Below are positions 3,066-24,707 of a stretch of DNA of 34,347 bases, one piece after another. Source of the DNA: Candidatus Cloacimonadota bacterium (GTDB lineage Bacteria > Cloacimonadota > Cloacimonadia > JGIOTU-2). The notes under the pieces were generated by a model that searched no databases, was not told the origin of the DNA, and saw only the letters and a list, made by a program, of their open reading frames with translations. How positions within the stretch are numbered: position 1 is the first letter of the stretch; the number at the start of each line of letters is the position of its first letter. The stretch covers positions 1-34,347 of the forward strand of contig JAUWPE010000013.1 in assembly GCA_030611765.1 (NCBI GenBank), read 5' to 3'. A program made the position numbers and the translations under genes.

Positions 3066-5798
3066 ATGAAGAAGATTTTTTGTAAGACACAAATAGTATT
3101 ATTAATGCTTTTTATTTTCATATACACAACCCTACATTCGCAGAGCTCAATAAATGTATGGAATAAAGATAATCAAAGTTTAAGTAATGGAGCAATACAT
3201 GGACAGGTGTGGTCAAATATTGGTGGACCAATTAAAGATGCATTGGTTTTTGTAACTGATCCAGATCTTACACATCTTTATGGTGAAGATATAAGCGATG
3301 ATGTAAGTAATTGGGGACAATACTGGATCAGTCCTCTTCCTTCAAATAAAGATTTGGTTGCTTTTGCATATCATCCTGGACGTCCTTTCATATTGGCATC
3401 AGAGAAATTTACATTATCATATAATGAAAATAAAAAAATTGAATTAGATTTATCTATTAATTATTCAGATCCAGGTTTTATTAAACTGTGTAACGATTTC
3501 AATAATTTTGGAACTGGTGGTGTGTTTCATCTTTCAGGTTTTGTATTAAGAATGATCACACTCTTACAACAATCACAAAATACTAATTATGCTAAGACGA
3601 TCATTGAGCAATTAAATTCATTAAAGGTTAATAATACTGATACATCAACAATGCCAACCTTAGGTTTCATTCTCGATTCCTCCGGCAGTATGAAAGACAA
3701 TGACCCGAACGATATAAGGAAAACTGCTCTTATTAATATTATCAAAGATAGGCTTACCGGTACTGAAAATGTGCATATAGTAGATTTTGACTCCGAGGCA
3801 CGTTTGTGTAACAATAATGTATCTGGTTGGTCAGAACAAGATTTAATAAATGCAGTACAAAGGATCGATTCTTCAGGTGGCACGAATGTTGAGGCAGGTC
3901 TTGATGCGATGAGTGCTTCGCTTACCAAAAATGGATTTTCTAATAATACAGGTGTGATGCTTCTCACAGACGGCCAGGGAGAATATACCGATGGCGCCCA
4001 ATGGTTCTTGAAAAATGGGATAAAAGTTTATACAGTGAGTTTTGTGGGTGAAACTGATGAAGTGCTACTGATGAATATTGCCCAACAAACCGGTGGAATT
4101 TATATGCGTGCAAATACTGCTAAACAAATATGTAATCTCTTCAACCTTTTTTATGATCTTTTAACTGGAAGTAGCATGTTCGTTTATCATAAAGATCAAA
4201 TACATCGAGGTGATGTGTTGGAATATTATTTTCCTGTGGATAATGTTGAGGGTTTGTTGTATTTTGCTACAAACTGGGCTGGCAGTAGAGGAGATATGAA
4301 AATAATTTCTCCATCTGGTAAGATCTTCACAGAAAATGAAGGTAGTGGACAATGGAATATAGGTGATACATACATTACCGCATCAATCCCGCCTATTGAG
4401 ATTGGGGATTGGGAGGTACAGTTGATGGGTTCACAGATTCCAGCTCAAGGAGGGGAGGTTAGTCTGGAAGTTCATGGTAAATCTGATCTCCTTTTTGATG
4501 TCGGTATGTCCGCGCTAGTAGGCATGGTTGATTTTCAGATAAATAGTATAATGAAACATCTTGTCAGTAATTATTCTACTACTGTTACAGTAGAAACACC
4601 CAGGGGAAATGAAATAAATATCAGTGATAAGCTTCAGAATGATATTTTATATTTTTTCCCAGCATCCGGCAAGGGTAGTTACAAATTTACCTTTATAATT
4701 AAGGGGAATAGAAATGATGGTTCTAAGTTCCAGAGACTACTTACAAGATACTATGTATTAGCTGAAATAGACGGAGAAGCTTCAACATATTTTTTTAAGG
4801 GTAGTGATTATCTTCAAGACAGTCTATTTGACAAGGCATTAGAATGCTTTCATATAGTTATAGTGATTGATCCAGATTACGTAGGAGCATACTACGGAAT
4901 GGGAATTATTTATGTCCAAAAAGGCAATTACAACAAGGCAATAGAATGCTACAAACAAATTATAGAGAAAGATCCAACTTATCCATATACATACTTCAAT
5001 ATGGGAAATGCTTATTGCTATAAAGGCAACTACGACAAGGCAATTTCTTACTATAAAAAATCGATTGAGATAGATCCAGATTATGCAGATGCATACTACA
5101 ATATGGGAGTTGCTTATGCCAAAAATTGTAACTACGATAAAGCGATAGAAGGTTATCAGGGAGCAATTGAGTTAGATCCTGATTATGCAGAAGCAAACAA
5201 CAATATGGGGATCGCTTATGCCAATAAAGGCAACTACGGCAAGGCAATTTCTTACTATAAAAAATCAATTGAGATAGATCCTAATTATGCAAAAGCATAC
5301 TACAATATGGGGGTTGCTTATGCCGATAATGGTAACTATGAAAAAGCAATAGAATGCTTTCTGAGATCGATTGAGATAGATCCAGATTATGCAGATGCAT
5401 ACTTCAATATGGGAAATGCCTATTACGATAAGGTAAACTATGACAAAGCGATAGAATGTTATCAGGGAGCAATTGAGATATATCCAACTTATCCATACGC
5501 ATACCTCAATATGGGAAATGCCTATTACGATAAGGGGAACTATGACAAAGCGATAGAATGTTATAAGAGATCAATTGAGATAGATACTGATTATTCAGAG
5601 GCATACTTCAATATGGGAAATGCTTACGCTCGAAAAGGTTGGGATATGGCAGCAGCTGATAGCTTTTATCAAGCGGGCTTGTTATATTTTAATCAAAACA
5701 ACAATCAGGAGGTTCTCAAAACGATAGATGCAATGAAGACAAAAACTCCAGATTCACCACTAATTCAAAAACTTATGGATAAATTGAATAAGGAATGA
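3066..5798 (+). CDS. exported von Willebrand factor A / TPR protein
   Basis: 910 residues from ATG 3066, which has GGAG at 3056-3059; an in-frame TTG at 3054 is unlikely. A signal peptide (1-26) is followed by a carboxypeptidase-regulatory-like beta domain (about 30-135), then a VWA domain (about 198-368) with a complete MIDAS: D204-S206-S208 (DSSGS), T273 and D302 (TDGQG). A beta-rich region (about 370-560) follows, then eight regular 34-residue TPRs plus a degenerate ninth (about 575-880). The TPRs have the NYDKAIECY...IEIDPDY pattern. VWA plus TPR suggests a metal-dependent adhesion or scaffold protein in the periplasm or on the surface. The substrate partner is unknown. It is coupled to the kelch gene upstream. 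TPR-encoding DNA is internally near-identical (for example 5027-5085 versus 5234-5285), pointing to recent repeat duplication. Confidence 0.85.
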   Translation: MKKIFCKTQIVLLMLFIFIYTTLHSQSSINVWNKDNQSLSNGAIHGQVWSNIGGPIKDALVFVTDPDLTHLYGEDISDDVSNWGQYWISPLPSNKDLVAFAYHPGRPFILASEKFTLSYNENKKIELDLSINYSDPGFIKLCNDFNNFGTGGVFHLSGFVLRMITLLQQSQNTNYAKTIIEQLNSLKVNNTDTSTMPTLGFILDSSGSMKDNDPNDIRKTALINIIKDRLTGTENVHIVDFDSEARLCNNNVSGWSEQDLINAVQRIDSSGGTNVEAGLDAMSASLTKNGFSNNTGVMLLTDGQGEYTDGAQWFLKNGIKVYTVSFVGETDEVLLMNIAQQTGGIYMRANTAKQICNLFNLFYDLLTGSSMFVYHKDQIHRGDVLEYYFPVDNVEGLLYFATNWAGSRGDMKIISPSGKIFTENEGSGQWNIGDTYITASIPPIEIGDWEVQLMGSQIPAQGGEVSLEVHGKSDLLFDVGMSALVGMVDFQINSIMKHLVSNYSTTVTVETPRGNEINISDKLQNDILYFFPASGKGSYKFTFIIKGNRNDGSKFQRLLTRYYVLAEIDGEASTYFFKGSDYLQDSLFDKALECFHIVIVIDPDYVGAYYGMGIIYVQKGNYNKAIECYKQIIEKDPTYPYTYFNMGNAYCYKGNYDKAISYYKKSIEIDPDYADAYYNMGVAYAKNCNYDKAIEGYQGAIELDPDYAEANNNMGIAYANKGNYGKAISYYKKSIEIDPNYAKAYYNMGVAYADNGNYEKAIECFLRSIEIDPDYADAYFNMGNAYYDKVNYDKAIECYQGAIEIYPTYPYAYLNMGNAYYDKGNYDKAIECYKRSIEIDTDYSEAYFNMGNAYARKGWDMAAADSFYQAGLLYFNQNNNQEVLKTIDAMKTKTPDSPLIQKLMDKLNKE

Positions 5799-19651: not shown

Positions 19652-19675
19652 AAATGAAATTTTTCATTTCTTGCG

Positions 19676-20002
19676 ATCCCGGTACGACCAAGCTTGAAAA
19701 GCAAATATCCTCTCACTTCGATAGATGAGTATATCACATGGCAACGAGAGGATGGACTTCCTTTTGATCCCTAGCTTCGGGTGCATGTAAAAAACGGCGG
19801 AAAGATCATAAAGCCCTGTCATAAAGCAATGTATATTCCCGGCACTATCAAAGAATGGGAAGAATGGACTGGTCTGAAGTTCTTTCCATCGGGGAAATAT
19901 ATTGTTGAAGATGCATTGAATCCAATATTGATAAATAAAGATATGAATTTGGGAGAATATATTGAGCCAAATGTGTGGGTAGTGCATGAGATTGAGCATT
20001 AG
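19676..20002 (+). pseudogene. GNAT-family acetyltransferase pseudogene, N-terminus lost and internal stop
   Basis: One frame reads RPSLKSKYPLTSIDEYITWQ, REDGLPFDP, stop, LRVHVKNGGKIIKPCHKAMY, IPGTIKEWEEWTGLKFFPSG, ...GEYIEPNVWVVHEI. The REDGLPFDPWLRVH...EWEEWTGL...YxEPNVW pattern is typical of a GNAT subgroup. The residue lost at the TAG (19772-19774) is the conserved Trp, so TGG to TAG is the likely change. About 100 N-terminal residues, including the start of the acetyl-CoA fold, are missing. A GTG at 19781 opens the remaining 73 codons, but they alone cannot form the enzyme. Confidence 0.75.
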
Positions 20003-20117: not shown

Positions 20118-20258
20118 ATGTATGAATTATTTAAGAGAAGCAGAAAAGGAAGTATTAAAGACACAGAAAACTATACCCATGTTTCCACGAAAAATCTGCA
20201 AAATATCATCTCACCAGCGGATCTCATTTTTTCGGATAAGGAAAAAATAAACGAATGA
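20118..20258 (+). pseudogene. 3' remnant of a tyrosine recombinase (integrase)
   Basis: The 46 codons from ATG 20118 to TGA 20256 encode SIKDTENYTHVSTKNLQNII, then SPADLIFSDKEK. The xTTEIYTHVSTKNLQNIxSPxD text is the characteristic end of tyrosine recombinases of the XerC/D and integron-integrase type, and Y19 of the fragment is the catalytic tyrosine. The rest of the catalytic domain (R..K..HxxR) is absent upstream, so this is a broken gene. It points toward the cassette-like units that follow. Confidence 0.65.
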
Positions 20259-20288
20259 TTTGTTCGTATAATACTCCAATATGGCGTT

Positions 20289-20348
20289 CTATACGCAGTA
20301 TGTCGTATAGGAAGTAGTTACCTGCAAGGTTTAAAAACAACATACTGC
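20289..20348. promoter_or_regulatory. nested inverted repeats before the TIR gene
   Basis: CTATACG (20289-20295) pairs with CGTATAG (20304-20310), and GCAGTATGT (20295-20303) pairs exactly with ACATACTGC (20340-20348), ending five bases before the TIR ATG. The two pairings share bases and so are mutually exclusive. It could be an attI/attC relic, an operator or a switch in the leader RNA. No canonical GTTRRRY core is visible here, and no ribosome binding site precedes the ATG. Confidence 0.35.
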
Positions 20349-20353
20349 AAAAC

Positions 20354-21352
20354 ATGACAGATAATAAAACTAATAATTTCACATGTGATTTTGCGATTTC
20401 TTACGCAGGAGAAGAAGAAGAAATAGCGAATGGAATTTACCAGTCCTTAATAGAAAAATATGAGGGTTTTGTAATATTTTTTGCCCTTAGGGATAGAAAT
20501 AAACTTATCGGAAATGACGGTGAAAATTTTTTTGAAAACCTTTTTAATTCTGCAAAACAAGTGATTGTTATTTTGTCAGAGAATTATAAAAAAAAGGAAT
20601 GGACTCGCTATGAATGGGATATTATAAAAGAAAGAAACAAGGAAAATAGATGTATTCCAATAAAAGTTGATAATGTTAAAATTCTGGGATTACCATCAAA
20701 TTTTATCTACTTAAAGTTTAATGGCGATTATGAAGATATTGCAAATTTGTGTATTGAGAAATTAGTGACTTTTGAGAAAGATAAAGGAATTGTACGAAAA
20801 TCAGATTTACAAAAGCTAACTGAGTCTCTTGAAAACTCGAGAGGGGCAGTAGATAAAGCTGTACAATTGGTTTTAGATAAAAGAGAAAGAACGCCACTTA
20901 AAGACATCAATTATCCAAAAGGTAATTTTATCAAATCATTTGAAATTATTAAGATTGAAGAACTTCCATATTCTCGAATTCAAAGATTAAGTGCAAGGAT
21001 TAATTTACCTGACAATTTAAGTAAAGAGGAGGTAGCGTTTAATATTAAATATTGTACAGCTGAATTGTTTAATAAAAATAAACCAGATGCTTTAGGCTTA
21101 TTTGTTTACTCCTCTGAAGCTTCAAATTTCTTAGGATTTGAAAAATTCAATGTAGCTAAAGCTGATTTTGCTCCATTTGGTGATTGGGGTCAAGCCGAGG
21201 AAGCATTTGCATATAACTTACCTTCTGACAAATTTGATTGGAAAATCGAATTTGAAGAAAGCTATTTTGATAAAAAAAAACGTATTAAAACATCTGATGA
21301 GTTTGCAAGAGATTTAGTAATGGAAATGATGAAAAACAAAAAGAAAAAATAA
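20354..21352 (+). CDS. TIR-domain protein with uncharacterised C-terminal domain
   Basis: 332 residues. The TIR fold spans about 10-137: box 1 DFAISYAGEEEEIANGIYQS, then RDRNKLIGNDGENFFENLF, then VIVILSENYKKKEWTRYEWD. E87 in the YEW segment is in the position of the catalytic Glu of NAD-consuming TIRs. Residues 150-332 contain a conserved-looking mixed alpha/beta domain (SRIQRLSARINLPDNLSKEE...KADFAPFGDWGQAEEAF) that I cannot assign. There is no signal peptide or membrane segment. TIR proteins with an extra domain commonly act in anti-phage defence, and the location next to a restriction-modification pair fits. It is AT-rich and sits as a single-gene cassette in front of an attC-like palindrome. 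Confidence 0.8.
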   Translation: MTDNKTNNFTCDFAISYAGEEEEIANGIYQSLIEKYEGFVIFFALRDRNKLIGNDGENFFENLFNSAKQVIVILSENYKKKEWTRYEWDIIKERNKENRCIPIKVDNVKILGLPSNFIYLKFNGDYEDIANLCIEKLVTFEKDKGIVRKSDLQKLTESLENSRGAVDKAVQLVLDKRERTPLKDINYPKGNFIKSFEIIKIEELPYSRIQRLSARINLPDNLSKEEVAFNIKYCTAELFNKNKPDALGLFVYSSEASNFLGFEKFNVAKADFAPFGDWGQAEEAFAYNLPSDKFDWKIEFEESYFDKKKRIKTSDEFARDLVMEMMKNKKKK

Positions 21353-21491
21353 ACCCAGCAGGTAACAATGTATAAAAATAATAGCCGAAATAGTAGTAAA
21401 TTCAAGGGTTATAGCCCGCTTCAACTTCATCGTAAATTGAAAGATTTGAGTTCCGCAGTCGGCTATTATTCTTATACTTCACGTTGTGTGT
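21353..21491. other. attC-like imperfect palindrome after the TIR gene
   Basis: GTATAAAAATAATAGCCGA (21370-21388) and TCGGCTATTATTCTTATAC (21459-21477) are complementary at 18 of 19 positions. Outside them, ACCCAGC (21353-21359, like RYYYAAC), GTAACAAT (21362-21369) and CGTTGTGT (21482-21489, like GTTRRRY) resemble the outer simple sites of an integron attC. Total length is about 139 bp with a 70-nt loop. It begins directly at the TIR stop codon, as attC sites do in gene cassettes. A 41-codon frame running through it is an accident of the palindrome. Confidence 0.6.
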
Positions 21492-21532
21492 AATTAAAAA
21501 AAATGATTAATTTTGTACAAAAAAGGAAATAA

Positions 21533-22777
21533 ATGTTTGTTGAAATATTAAAGAACTTCAAATTAGAAAAAAAAACACCAAGTCTTTTTGATTTTGATGA
21601 TAATAAAAATTATACACGTATAGAAAACATTAGAATACAGGGTATTGAAGTAAATAAATACATAAATGAATTTTGGACAGCTAAACAAAGGCAAGCCAAT
21701 AGCATACACGAAATATCTTATAGAGCCTGTTTTAAACCACAATTACCAAGATTTTTCATTAAACATTTAACCAAAGAAAAAGATTATGTTTATGATCCGT
21801 TTCTTGGGAGAGGAACAACAATTATTGAAGCGGGATTGTTAAATAGACAAGTAATAGGAAATGATATAAATCCTTTAAGTATAATTTTGAGTAAACCTCG
21901 TTTTCTGATTCCTAACTTTAATAAATTATCAATTTACTTAAATAAGATACCTTTTTTTAAAGGTTTAAAGGCAGATATAGATTTATCAATGTTTTATCAC
22001 CCTGATACCGAGAGTGAAATAGTATCATTAAGAAATTTAATTTTGGAAAAAGAAGAAAAAGGAAAACTAAACGATTTTGATAAATGGATAAGAATGGTCG
22101 CTACTAATAGATTAACAGGACATTCCAAAGGTTTCTTTTCTGTCTATACAATGCCACCAAATCAAGCGGTTTTACCTGAAAGGCAAATAAAAATTAATCA
22201 AAAAAGAAATCAAATACCCGAATATAGAAATGTCAAACAATTAATTTTAAATAAAACGAAATCTTTAATAAAGGATGTTTCTTCTGCTCAAAGGCAACAG
22301 TTAAAAGAAATACATAAAACCGTTATTTTTTCAAACACAGATGCTCGTTATACAAAAGAAATACCTGATAATTTCGTTCAATTGACAGTTACTTCACCAC
22401 CTTTTTTAGATATTGTTCAGTATGCAAAAGATAATTGGCTCCGAGGTTGGTTTAATGGAATTGATATAAATGAAGTTGAACAAAAAATTACAATGTCTAA
22501 AAAAATCGAACAGTGGACAAATGTAATGCAGCTTGTTTTTAACGAATTATACAGAATAACAAAGATAGGTGGGTATGTGGCTTTTGAAGTAGGAGAAGTA
22601 AGAAACGGTAAAATAAAATTGGACGAATATGTTGTTCCTTTGGGAATAAGTTCTGGTTTCAATGTAATTGGAATAGTCATAAACGAACAGAAATTTACGA
22701 AAACTGCAAATATTTGGGGTGTGAAAAATAACTTAAAAGGCACAAATTCAAATAGAATAATTTTATTTAAAAAGTAG
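21533..22777 (+). CDS. DNA methyltransferase of a type II restriction-modification system
   Basis: 414 residues; AAAGGAAA precedes the ATG. Motif I DPFLGRGTT (88-96), followed by the acidic strand end GNDINP (109-114), binds S-adenosylmethionine. Motif IV SPPF (288-291, in TVTSPPFLDIVQYA) is the catalytic loop. Motif I before IV and Ser in place of Asn/Asp suggest an N4-cytosine enzyme, though SPPF is also found in some other amino-methyltransferases. The roughly 190-residue region between the motifs is long enough to hold the target-recognition part. Its partner nuclease starts 7 bp downstream. The recognition sequence cannot be read from the protein. Confidence 0.85.
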   Translation: MFVEILKNFKLEKKTPSLFDFDDNKNYTRIENIRIQGIEVNKYINEFWTAKQRQANSIHEISYRACFKPQLPRFFIKHLTKEKDYVYDPFLGRGTTIIEAGLLNRQVIGNDINPLSIILSKPRFLIPNFNKLSIYLNKIPFFKGLKADIDLSMFYHPDTESEIVSLRNLILEKEEKGKLNDFDKWIRMVATNRLTGHSKGFFSVYTMPPNQAVLPERQIKINQKRNQIPEYRNVKQLILNKTKSLIKDVSSAQRQQLKEIHKTVIFSNTDARYTKEIPDNFVQLTVTSPPFLDIVQYAKDNWLRGWFNGIDINEVEQKITMSKKIEQWTNVMQLVFNELYRITKIGGYVAFEVGEVRNGKIKLDEYVVPLGISSGFNVIGIVINEQKFTKTANIWGVKNNLKGTNSNRIILFKK

Positions 22778-22784
22778 AAATAAT

Positions 22785-23441
22785 ATGAATAAAAATATTT
22801 CAAAAGAATTAGAAGGTGTAATATCTCAAATGATTAAACCATTAAAAGGTTTACCGTTAGGTATTGTGATAGAGGGTTTATCAGGATATAAAGCAAAACC
22901 TTTTAATAAACGAAGTGAGAAAGATTTAAAGGTTTTGGAGATATTAAAAAGAGTTGCGGATGATGTTTTAACGGAAGTCAATAAAAAAGGAATTTTAAGA
23001 CCAAGACCGAATGAAGTTGGGAACGATATTGAACCCTATGTCAAGCAATCTATACAAAAATATAATTATCGTGCAGATACCCCTTTAACTATAAGTGGAA
23101 AAAAGAAATCGACAGGATACCCTGATATTGAATTTATTGATGAATTTGGTAGGTCTAATTATTTAGAATGTAAAACATACAATATTAATAACATTGAAAC
23201 TACACAAAGAAGTTTTTATTTATCACCTTCCGATGATTTTAAAATCACAAAAGATGCACATCATTTTGGCATTTCATTTGAAATTTATGTTGAAAAAAGT
23301 ATTGGCAACAAACATTTATATAAAGTAAACAATTGGAAAATATTAGATTTATCGAAACTTGAACTTGATGTAAAATACGAATTTAACGCATATAATAAAA
23401 GGTTATATGATAAAAAGTTAATATTAGCCAAGAAAAAATAA
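22785..23441 (+). CDS. type II restriction endonuclease, PD-(D/E)XK fold
   Basis: 218 residues. The catalytic signature is GYPDIEFID (111-119) followed by NYLECK (125-130), that is D114 - 13 residues - E128 - C - K130, a PD-(D/E)XK site with C at the variable position. No further family could be named. It begins 7 bp after the methyltransferase stop and ends exactly where the second attC-like palindrome starts. The genes together are one cassette-like unit of about 2 kb. Gene size and position make it the cognate nuclease of the methyltransferase. Confidence 0.8.
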   Translation: MNKNISKELEGVISQMIKPLKGLPLGIVIEGLSGYKAKPFNKRSEKDLKVLEILKRVADDVLTEVNKKGILRPRPNEVGNDIEPYVKQSIQKYNYRADTPLTISGKKKSTGYPDIEFIDEFGRSNYLECKTYNINNIETTQRSFYLSPSDDFKITKDAHHFGISFEIYVEKSIGNKHLYKVNNWKILDLSKLELDVKYEFNAYNKRLYDKKLILAKKK

Positions 23442-23445
23442 CTAC

Positions 23446-23577
23446 ACCCAACAACAAATATAGGGCATTTGGCAGATAGTGTTAAAAATGAAGATATTAG
23501 CAATAAATAACATTGGTCGTAACTTGAAAATGAATCGTTTCAAAATGCCAAACGCACCATATTCAAACCGTTAGGAG
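23446..23577. other. attC-like imperfect palindrome after the restriction gene
   Basis: AAATATAGGGCATTTGGCA (23456-23474) and TGCCAAACGCACCATATTC (23546-23564) are complementary at 15 of 19 positions, around a 71-nt loop. The left outer box ACCCAAC (23446-23452) fits RYYYAAC exactly, and the right outer box CGTTAGGAG (23569-23577) fits GTTRRRY but for the last base. Size, unpaired bases and box layout are those of an integron attC site. It starts five bases after the stop of the nuclease gene, and its right box also supplies the ribosome binding site (AGGAG) for the following gene. Confidence 0.65.
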
Positions 23578-23586
23578 ATTCATAAT

Positions 23587-24534
23587 ATGAAAACCAAAAT
23601 TTCATTACTCGCTCTGACACTCTTTGCAATTGTTCTGTCGAGTTGCAATACGACACCTCACAAGAACACAATAAAGGTGGGTTATTTACCTATGGTTTCC
23701 AGTTTGACCCATTTTGTTGCTGTTAAGAACGGATATTACAAAGATGAAGGGCTCGAAGTTCAAGCTCAGCAGATAATGACAAGCAATCTTATTGCACAAG
23801 ACCTTGTTGCAGGACACATTGATGCGGCTATTGAACTTTCAATAATTCCACTTCTCAAGCAACTGGAAAATTCACCAAATGCTGCAAAGATATTTTCCAT
23901 CAGCAGCATTACAAGCGAAAATGGTTTTGACGGAGTTTTGGTAAAATCAAATTCGCAAATTGTGAAGCTTGAAGACATTGCAGGAAAGAAAATTGGCGTC
24001 TTCCCTGGTACTACTGCTAAAAATTCCCTTTCAGATATTTTTAAAACACAATTTCCAAATCTTGAACTCCCTATTTTTGTTGAATTGGACCCGATCGTTC
24101 ATATACAATCTTTAGAAAACGGTGATATCGATGCACTCTTTGCATATGAACCGACTTTAACTTTGGGTATCGTGAAGAATGGCTTTAATAAAATATCCAA
24201 TTCTATTTACGCAATCCAATATTCACCCAATCCAATCGGTGTGGGAGCAGTTAATGACAAATGGTTGGCAGAAAATCTCGAAACTGCGAAAGCATTTTTT
24301 AAAGCGATTGACAGAGCAGTCGAGTTTATTGAGAAAAATCCTATAGAAGCGAGAAGGATCTTAGCAAAGGCAACAGACCTGGATGAAAATATCGCAAACG
24401 AAATGAATATAATGCCTCTTTCACTCTCTACGCAAATTGATTATAATAACCTAAGGGGTTATCTGGATGTTCTAAAAAACCTTGGGGAAATCGATGAAAC
24501 ACCATCCCCAAAAGATATTTGTAAACATGAGTGA
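23587..24534 (+). CDS. ABC-type solute-binding lipoprotein (NMT1/SsuA/ThiY-like)
   Basis: 315 residues; AGGAG at 23573-23577. Lipobox VLSSC with C20 as the lipidated residue. The body has the NMT1/thiamine-precursor/sulfonate/nitrate-binding pattern: IKVGYLPMVSSLTHFVAVKN, GYYKDEGLEVQ, DLVAGHIDAAIE, LEDIAGKKIGVFPGTTAKNS, LENGDIDALFAYEP. Such proteins deliver small organics to an ABC importer, but no permease or ATPase gene lies next to it in this window, so it is an orphan here. It lies immediately behind the last attC-like palindrome. It is either the first gene of the flanking chromosome or a cassette lacking its own site. Confidence 0.85.
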   Translation: MKTKISLLALTLFAIVLSSCNTTPHKNTIKVGYLPMVSSLTHFVAVKNGYYKDEGLEVQAQQIMTSNLIAQDLVAGHIDAAIELSIIPLLKQLENSPNAAKIFSISSITSENGFDGVLVKSNSQIVKLEDIAGKKIGVFPGTTAKNSLSDIFKTQFPNLELPIFVELDPIVHIQSLENGDIDALFAYEPTLTLGIVKNGFNKISNSIYAIQYSPNPIGVGAVNDKWLAENLETAKAFFKAIDRAVEFIEKNPIEARRILAKATDLDENIANEMNIMPLSLSTQIDYNNLRGYLDVLKNLGEIDETPSPKDICKHE

Positions 24535-24549
24535 ATGTGTAGATTCTTT

Positions 24550-24668
24550 TCTCTACCCCCTCTAACTCCCCCTAATTAAGGGGAGAACATAACTTCCTTT
24601 TATCGGGTAGTTCCCTTCCCCTTTGATAGGGGGAAGGGTGAGGGATAGAGGTAGTTTATAAGAGAAAA
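24550..24668. repeat. complex palindromic repeat between convergent genes
   Basis: An outer arm TTCTCTACC/GGTAG...AGAGAA encloses CCCCT-AATTA-AGGGG (24569-24583) and CCCTTCCCC...GGGGGAAGGG (24613-24638). The C-rich text CCCCTCTAACTCCCCC and its GGGTGAGGGATAGAGG partner belong to a type of dispersed intergenic repeat, similar to the interior of 10690-10815. It lies between convergent genes, so it may also serve as a two-way terminator. Confidence 0.55.
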
Positions 24669-24707
24669 ACCGTTTCACACTTAGGAACGAGAGTGCGTGT
24701 TGTTTAT

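Follow-up and report, generated by a model that had tools for sequence, protein, structure and literature searches.

Within the window (the whole stretch of 34,347 nucleotides that was analysed, from a Candidatus Cloacimonadota bacterium), a group of defence-related genes is accompanied by two large palindromes. A sequence-only reading had located these genes and palindromes, all of them on the + strand, and their positions were found again, the genes being supported by matches in Pfam and PADLOC. The first gene (20354..21352) codes for a TIR-domain protein of 332 aa (PF13676, E 1.5e-13) that has weak PADLOC matches to PDC-S66 and ThsB and a homologue in G005:C142. Its AlphaFold prediction from the single sequence reached a pLDDT of only 36 and was left unused. 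The following genes code for a type II DNA methyltransferase of 414 aa (21533..22777; PF01555, E 2.3e-19; PADLOC MTase_II, E 1.3e-150) and a type II restriction endonuclease of 218 aa (22785..23441; PADLOC REase_II, E 3.8e-39), the latter without any match in Pfam.

On the left side, the 3' fragment of an acetyltransferase gene (19658..20002, + strand) is joined to the chromosomal flank. This fragment was recognised by its similarity to sequences on C30, another contig of this genome (77% identity), and on G006:C37 (94%). In C30 the acetyltransferase gene is complete; it comes after lpdA and has a recombinase tail behind it. At 19658, the left junction does not resemble that of any relative; a rearrangement or a join made during assembly may account for it. 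On the right side, a gene for an NMT1/SsuA-like substrate-binding protein (23587..24534, + strand; PF09084, E 1.9e-18) sits between the boundary of the second palindrome and a flank whose conservation starts at about 24673/24715. The gene had no nucleotide match among 60 relatives; it could be a third cassette whose attC is not recognisable. A phage remnant was rejected because the array has no adjoining phage genes.

attC-type sites and cassette boundaries

Both palindromes begin close behind the preceding stop codon, as had been claimed, with gaps of 8 and 5 nt, respectively. The first, attC1 (21360..21489, + strand), has AGGTAAC as R'' and GTTGTGT as R'; the second, attC2 (23446..23576, + strand), has ACCCAAC and GTTAGGA. 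They are about 2 kb apart and have the same orientation as the genes. The R'' box of attC2 fits RYYYAAC, whereas the boxes of attC1 fall outside the full RYYYAAC/GTTRRRY consensus. The sites have an AAC/GTT core and a covarying, imperfectly paired stem. An Rfam search of the window returned only a tRNA, and the attC-type sites had no Rfam match.

The boundaries of the cassettes can be deduced from the pairing rule of integrons. Cassette 1, with the TIR gene (20318..21483, + strand), starts at G|TTACCTGC, and its first bases GTTACCTGC pair at 9/9 positions with the R'' of the attC that closes it, GCAGGTAAC (21358-21366). Cassette 2, with the restriction-modification pair (21484..23570, + strand), starts at G|TTGTGTGTA and is the reverse complement of its own R'', TACACCCAAC (23443-23452), at 9 of 10 positions. 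As a control for chance, only 2 of the 1070 GTT trinucleotides of the window match either R'' at 6/7 or more positions. In 15 cassettes from this and related genomes, agreement extends over 6.47 of 7 positions for true R'/R'' pairs and over 2.41 for mismatched pairs, a level that was equalled in 0 of 100,000 permutations. For instance, the pairing is present in all five consecutive cassettes of G015:C249. Together with the covarying stems, these matches bear out the integron-type cassette plan that the sequence-only reading had proposed.

A reading of the palindromes as dispersed repeats (MITE, REP or terminator-like) that stand behind defence genes by chance, without any cassettes, can hardly be maintained. 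The genome does contain other dispersed palindromic repeats, such as those at 24547-24680 and the TCCGTCAGCTGACGGA elements, and the attC1 family is conserved at 75-85% across genomes. However, dispersed repeats do not predict that the bases behind the upstream palindrome match the downstream R''. Moreover, array L118 has five sites in a head-to-tail row, each with a single gene. MITEs and terminators were rejected on the same ground, since such elements do not follow the R'/R'' rule.

A scan for AAC..GTT palindrome stems was too noisy in this AT-rich DNA, even more so if the core could contain A, and was dropped in favour of profile and covariance searches. The covariance model built in this analysis, R1, derives from 23 sites and shows compensatory changes in 12 of the 15 stem pairs. 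attC1, whose relatives in many genomes share 77-85% identity with it, is a training member and scores 149.8 bits. attC2 was left out of the training set and scores 80.7 bits (E 1.2e-15), so that the attC score that had been named as a test of the cassette plan is obtained with this purpose-built model. R1 detected seven sites in this genome, some of them on four other contigs. Across the class it had hits in 37 of 123 genomes (all of them draft MAGs), where the sites lie beside unrelated cargo, another expectation of the cassette plan. In other phyla, R1 sites were found adjoining homologous recombinases on plasmids of Persicobacter (E 2e-14) and Chryseobacterium (E 9e-11). The comparison with another phylum also drew on 40 named genomes.

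A recombinase family lacking the IntI insertion

Upstream of cassette 1 lies the 3' remnant of a tyrosine recombinase gene (20148..20258, + strand). The tail had been placed at 20118-20258; it is real, but its reading frame (G-S-I-K-D-T-E-N-Y-T-H-V-S-T-K...) covers only 20148-20258, the last 36 codons of the gene, and belongs to a recombinase that is not IntI. Its reference is the full-length 295-aa recombinase of G033:C30 (L117, 5496-6383), with whose C-terminus it shares 68% identity. Although the short length of the tail is indecisive by itself, the homology continues as far as the cassette boundary, and for this reason the tail is assigned to a family of cassette recombinases without the I2 insertion (group A); its interpretation as an IntI remnant was rejected. 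Between the tail and cassette 1, an alignment of ten loci revealed an attI-like site (20285..20319, + strand) composed of the inverted repeat TATACG..CGTATA followed by GGAAGTA|GTT. In these ten loci, the window included, the region 3' of group-A recombinases is conserved up to GTT and divergent from GTT on, which meets the attI criterion of a site beside the integrase with a shared insertion point.

Full-length members of this family are present in about 23 of 125 genomes of the class, and the family also occurs in Bacteroidota and in one Marinimicrobia genome. Usually, the recombinase gene immediately precedes the paired cassettes and is read in the same direction, with an attI-like palindrome close behind its 3' end; homologues in G125 and G126 have no adjoining array. 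Contigs end exactly at G/ATT(A) in G026 (two contigs), G057 and the Marinimicrobia genome, and a contig of G004 begins at CGTTA. Such breaks are expected because different cassettes after one and the same site would split an assembly.

The integron integrase is defined by an IntI-specific additional domain near patch III (PMC9668308), with I2 described in PMC4792948. The segment between the catalytic K and H comprises 64-65 residues in 31/31 cassette recombinases, 70-71 in Xer and 106-107 in 8/8 IntI proteins. The 42-residue I2 insertion is thus missing and the IntI criterion is not met, the TIGR02249 score being 219 against a cut-off of 265. Xer criteria are not met either (XerD 185.6 and XerC 179.6 bits, with cut-offs of 329.6 and 335.15). 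In the tree, the cassette recombinases form one clade (93/96) and IntI another (100/99), with Xer outside both; the family is sister to IntI. Housekeeping xerC and xerD genes are separate in this genome (C76 and C165). In one bacterial family of the class the recombinases occur as tandem pairs, whose upstream member has lost the catalytic HxxR motif in all ten copies.

It is rather improbable that the array is an ordinary CALIN, that is, a cluster of canonical attC sites moved by a true IntI encoded elsewhere, the tail being an unrelated Xer-like relic. The array does formally satisfy the CALIN definition (two or more attC sites spaced by less than 4 kb, with no IntI). In addition, 7 of 123 genomes of the class have true IntI genes that score above the TIGR02249 cut-off, and in this genome itself one IntI is broken (C26) and C156 carries IntI tails together with attC sites of canonical appearance. 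However, R1 found no sites in the seven loci examined that carry true IntI genes or remnants, the site type is not significantly commoner in IntI genomes (4/7, p 0.2), and a recombinase other than IntI heads such arrays in many genomes of three phyla. The sites are commoner where that recombinase is present (16/23 genomes versus 21/100 without it; p 1.5e-5, not corrected for kinship); among f1-family genomes with sites, 8/12 have no detected recombinase. We hold with high confidence that the window contains a decayed, integrase-truncated array of two, possibly three, cassettes of an integron variant, whose activity is inferred. The array is best seen as the remnant of a variant with an insertion-less recombinase rather than as an IntI integron minus IntI. 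The absence of an integron integrase, part of the sequence-only reading, holds in so far as the recombinase is only a remnant; what was truncated is the variant's own recombinase, not an IntI.

Proposed mechanism and relation to known systems

In an intact array, each cassette would end in an attC-type site able to fold as single-stranded DNA, and the co-directional recombinase encoded upstream would recombine folded attC sites, either among themselves or with the attI-like site just 3' of its gene, at the G|TT core. Circular cassettes could thereby enter and leave the array. In one family of the class, the co-conserved, catalytically altered partner may take the part of the non-cleaving subunit. 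Recombination activity, the single-stranded substrate and this partner role are all inferred, and neither excision nor integration has been observed.

The array resembles sedentary chromosomal integrons and CALINs (PMC9024848) in its co-oriented genes, each with an attC-type palindrome, the G|TT core, R'/R'' complementarity, an attI-like site, and short cassettes with mixed cargo. It differs from them in a recombinase that lacks the IntI-specific extra domain and is co-directional with the cassettes, and in R boxes that allow GTTRNNN (ATTA in groups B and C) instead of GTTRRRY. Treponema integrons (PMC3607928) share the atypical orientation, with intI transcribed toward the cassettes, but they are described with intI, whereas the recombinases studied here form another clade without the insertion. 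XerA and XerC/D (PDB 4a8e, 5hxy, 1a0p; the best PDB sequence match is 4a8e) have the same domain layout and no I2, but they fall outside the clade of IntI and the cassette recombinases, and only the latter head cassette arrays here. Further relatives (about 50% identity) are Bacteroidota proteins annotated as 'site-specific tyrosine recombinase/integron integrase', such as that of a Chryseobacterium sp. SNU WT5 plasmid, which are also followed by cassettes with sites recognised by R1; they belong to another phylum and are annotated by family name only. No paper describing these proteins as integrons was found, nor any description of Cloacimonadota integrons or I2-less integron integrases, in a literature that excluded preprints and subscription journals.

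According to PMC4792948 and PMC7790495, I2 has not been identified elsewhere and is the innovation by which integrases became able to act on folded, single-stranded sites. Natural I2-less cassette recombinases beside covarying attC-type stems make this requirement directly testable: either folded-site recombination needs no I2 or these enzymes solve the problem otherwise, for instance by means of double-stranded sites or a dead partner. Only tentatively can it be suggested that a second integron lineage, present in Cloacimonadota, Bacteroidota and at least one Marinimicrobia genome, captures cassettes through folded attC sites without the I2 helix, and that one family uses a duplicated, catalytically dead recombinase, in place of the extrahelical bases and the I2 of IntI, to block the second strand exchange. 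This lineage would have been largely missed because integron searches rely on the IntI extra domain. The I2-less cassette recombinases also imply that surveys based on IntI under-count integrons. Bacteroidota are an example: for Bacteroidetes proper, only one complete integron was reported with IntegronFinder 2 (PMC9024848).

Locus variation and cassette cargo

Since the recombinase gene is cut to its last 36 codons, cassettes of the window could move only in trans, or no longer at all. This genome yielded no intact recombinase of either kind, and therefore the array may be dead. This raises the possibility, which we find doubtful, of a fixed defence island, in which the cassette architecture is ancient and inert, movement is over and the genes are kept for defence. 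The truncation, the absence of an intact copy and an in-frame insertion of 11 residues before the catalytic tyrosine, common to the copies on C181, C189 and C72 of this genome, agree with it. However, a gene can go missing from a 96%-complete MAG, action in trans is possible, and sister species differ in content at the same chromosomal place, which is empty in G002 and carries another cassette in G004, as the sequence-only reading had anticipated for a cassette array.

That reading had also suggested a mobile defence island. The term 'defence island' fits the cargo of this genome but not the class, whose cassettes carry mixed cargo; mobility, like phage defence by the cargo, is inferred. Restriction-modification, TIR and Shedu genes circulate as cassettes in this uncultured phylum. 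The cassettes of this genome carry the TIR gene, two intact-looking type II restriction-modification systems, a split Shedu gene, and an EcoRI-type restriction-modification system whose endonuclease frame is short.

Array layout and cassette boundaries

The window corresponds to contig C90 of a draft genome of 2.23 Mb (G000); the RNase R that it encodes shares 89% identity with its counterpart in the Candidatus Cloacimonadota MAG NIOZ-UU3. From 19658 to about 24700 every array feature lies on the + strand. An acetyltransferase gene fragment (from 19658) is followed by the 3' end of a tyrosine recombinase gene, reduced to its final 36 codons (20148-20258), an attI-like palindrome, cassette 1 (a TIR gene and the palindrome attC1, 21360-21489), cassette 2 (a methyltransferase-endonuclease pair and the palindrome attC2, 23446-23576) and, lastly, a substrate-binding protein gene located 3' of attC2. 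Between this gene and the RNase R operon there is a dispersed repeat (24547-24680), with copies at about 80% on contig C18 of G000 and in G006 and G005, two genomes of the same class; it may be in place of a former third attC.

Integron cassettes are cut between G and TT, so that the first bases of a cassette pair with the R'' of its own attC. The start of cassette 1, GTTACCTGC (G at 20317), pairs with the R'' of its attC, GCAGGTAAC (21358-21366), at 9/9 positions; for cassette 2, GTTGTGTGTA (21483) and the R'' TACACCCAAC (23443-23452) do so at 9/10. Only 2 of the 1070 GTT trinucleotides of the whole window match either R'' at six or more of seven positions. The rule is also obeyed by cassettes of G000 contigs C91 (GTTATCTAA/TTAGATAAC) and C72 (GTTAGGCGTT/AACGCCTAAC) and in relatives, the clearest case being five consecutive cassettes downstream of a recombinase in G015 (contig C249). 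Over 15 cassettes the mean agreement was 6.47/7 for true pairs versus 2.41/7 for crossed pairs, and none of 100,000 permutations was equally good; some partners in this set were chosen by search, those of the window and of locus L118 being set by position. The cassette plan that the sequence-only reading had proposed for 20118-23577 is borne out by this complementarity.

attC-type sites and cassette cargo

A home-made covariance model (R1) was obtained from an alignment of 23 sites, including attC1 and leaving out attC2. The alignment yields an imperfect stem of 15 pairs, 12 of which show at least one pairing-preserving double change. R1, whose E-values are rough, recovered attC2 at 23440-23584 (E 1.2e-15). 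The covarying stem and this recovery support the attC-type status initially attributed to both palindromes. Other R1 sites of G000 are on C128, C91, C145 (two) and C142, and across the class R1 matches sequences in 37 of 123 genomes (E 1e-6 or better). R1 sites are also found downstream of homologous recombinases on a Persicobacter (E 2e-14) and a Chryseobacterium plasmid (E 9e-11), and in the cassette at the orthologous locus of G004 (E 8e-4). No R1 site was detected at seven loci with canonical integron integrase (IntI) genes or remnants, the flanking sequence available being short around most of them. On the Chryseobacterium plasmid, an IS110-family transposase lies within the attC-type site separating two cassettes (L214, 10044-11045).

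The proposal of a "defence island" holds only in part. Besides TIR and the cassette 2 restriction-modification pair, the cassettes of G000 carry an EcoRI-type pair, whose endonuclease frame is no longer than 154 aa, and a Shedu SduA gene that is broken into two frames (both on C145; L224, 6054-8821), a HinP1I-type pair and a RhuM-family protein (both C72) and a DUF3795 protein (C91). However, the 28 cassette proteins of several genomes are mixed: YhcG nuclease, Fic, Schlafen AlbA and a second DNA methylase on the defence side, transporters, hydrolases and a D-Ala ligase-like protein on the other. Therefore, defence is frequent among the cargo, yet it is no rule.

Recombinases and attI-like sites

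The window tail aligns to the C-terminal end of a G033 recombinase (295 aa); homology extends past it through the attI-like site, ending at the cassette boundary. Relatives of this recombinase are present in 23 of 125 class genomes (E 1e-40 or better). Directly 3' of the recombinases there is a palindromic site whose last bases are GTT or ATT, beyond which sequences differ. The association of recombinases and attC-type sites across genomes has a p of 1.5e-5, without kinship correction. Contigs terminate exactly at the attI-like site in G026 (two), G057 (one) and a Marinimicrobia genome (one), and a G004 contig starts at this boundary (CGTTA). Since assemblers break where one sequence has several continuations, we infer that these breaks suggest different first cassettes within the populations sampled.

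Against the integron integrase model, cassette recombinases reach 219 bits, in two pieces (cut-off, 265). From the catalytic K to H there are 64-65 residues in 31/31 cassette recombinases, 106-107 in 8/8 IntI and 70-71 in Xer. Cassette recombinases form one clade (93/96) and IntI another (100/99), Xer being outside both, although, because of long branches, the exact point where they join is less certain. The G000 copies on C181 (L020), C189 (L018) and C72 (L019) share an in-frame 11-residue insertion (PIHFFKTTGQA) immediately before the catalytic tyrosine; those of C181 and C189 are also cut short, their PPAGG ends being encoded by a palindromic repeat.

In family f4 recombinases occur as tandem pairs, a second one, B1, lying upstream of recombinase B2 (L163-L171; G038, G118, G100, G026, G114, G110, G120 and G099). 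B1, the sister of group C in the tree, has an altered HxxR in 10/10 proteins (H to S/T, R to K, next H to N) and an altered box I arginine in 9/10. Loss of HxxR while the tyrosine and the reading frames are retained suggests that B1 is a selected non-catalytic partner. On attC, IntI performs a single strand exchange only, imposed by extrahelical bases and the I2 helix (PMC4792948). We hypothesize that the altered B1 could limit the reaction to one strand exchange in place of these elements. No such partner was found upstream of groups A and C in the loci examined, and the hypothesis has no bearing on the group-A tail found in the window.

Locus variation and proposed working

As anticipated, cassette content at this place varies. 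In G002 the right flank (from about 24673/24715) comes immediately after lpdA, without array, and in G004 it is preceded by a different cassette with an attC2-like end. In G001, lpdA-fusA is followed by a recombinase tail, and the contig stops at the boundary; in G000, lpdA is found on C30 together with an acetyltransferase gene and a further recombinase tail. In G006, G001 and G004 the left flank (to 19659) adjoins different chromosomal genes, and the junction at 19658 is absent from every relative compared. Thus, either the array was joined to a new left neighbour by translocation or 19658 marks a chimeric assembly join.

In the proposed working, G|TT would be the point of recombination between the attI-like site and the folded attC of an incoming circular cassette, excision would be the reverse, and cassettes would be transcribed in the same direction as the recombinase gene. 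The geometry of the array and its conservation are observed; there is no experimental evidence of recombination. The window recombinase is truncated and no intact copy was found in G000, a 96%-complete genome (all class genomes being drafts), so the array is probably frozen or reliant on an enzyme in trans.

Integrons are defined by an IntI with an additional domain (PMC9668308), described as unidentified elsewhere (PMC4792948) and used by IntegronFinder 2 to distinguish IntI; for Bacteroidetes proper, that program reports a single complete integron (PMC9024848). Treponema is known to have integrases co-directional with their cassettes, as in the window system (PMC3607928). The open-access literature yielded no description of I2-less integrases accompanied by cassette arrays.

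True IntI remnants also occur in G000. Two near-identical 69-aa C-terminal tails (C156, L017; 4148-4357 and 7627-7836) lie within a duplicated stretch, oriented divergently from cassettes whose attC sites look canonical, and an IntI pseudogene with stops is located on C26 (L016, about 4198-4920). Outside the class, the Acinetobacter indicus plasmid p80-1-2-tetX3 carries a 5'-truncated recombinase homologue (L216, 3052-3907; 222 aa, 55% identity); tet(X3) lies about 190 bp downstream of it, and the interval contains an attI-like palindrome that ends in GTTATGTGCC. Because of this arrangement, tet(X3) may be a former cassette of the I2-less system, captured in a Bacteroidota ancestor.
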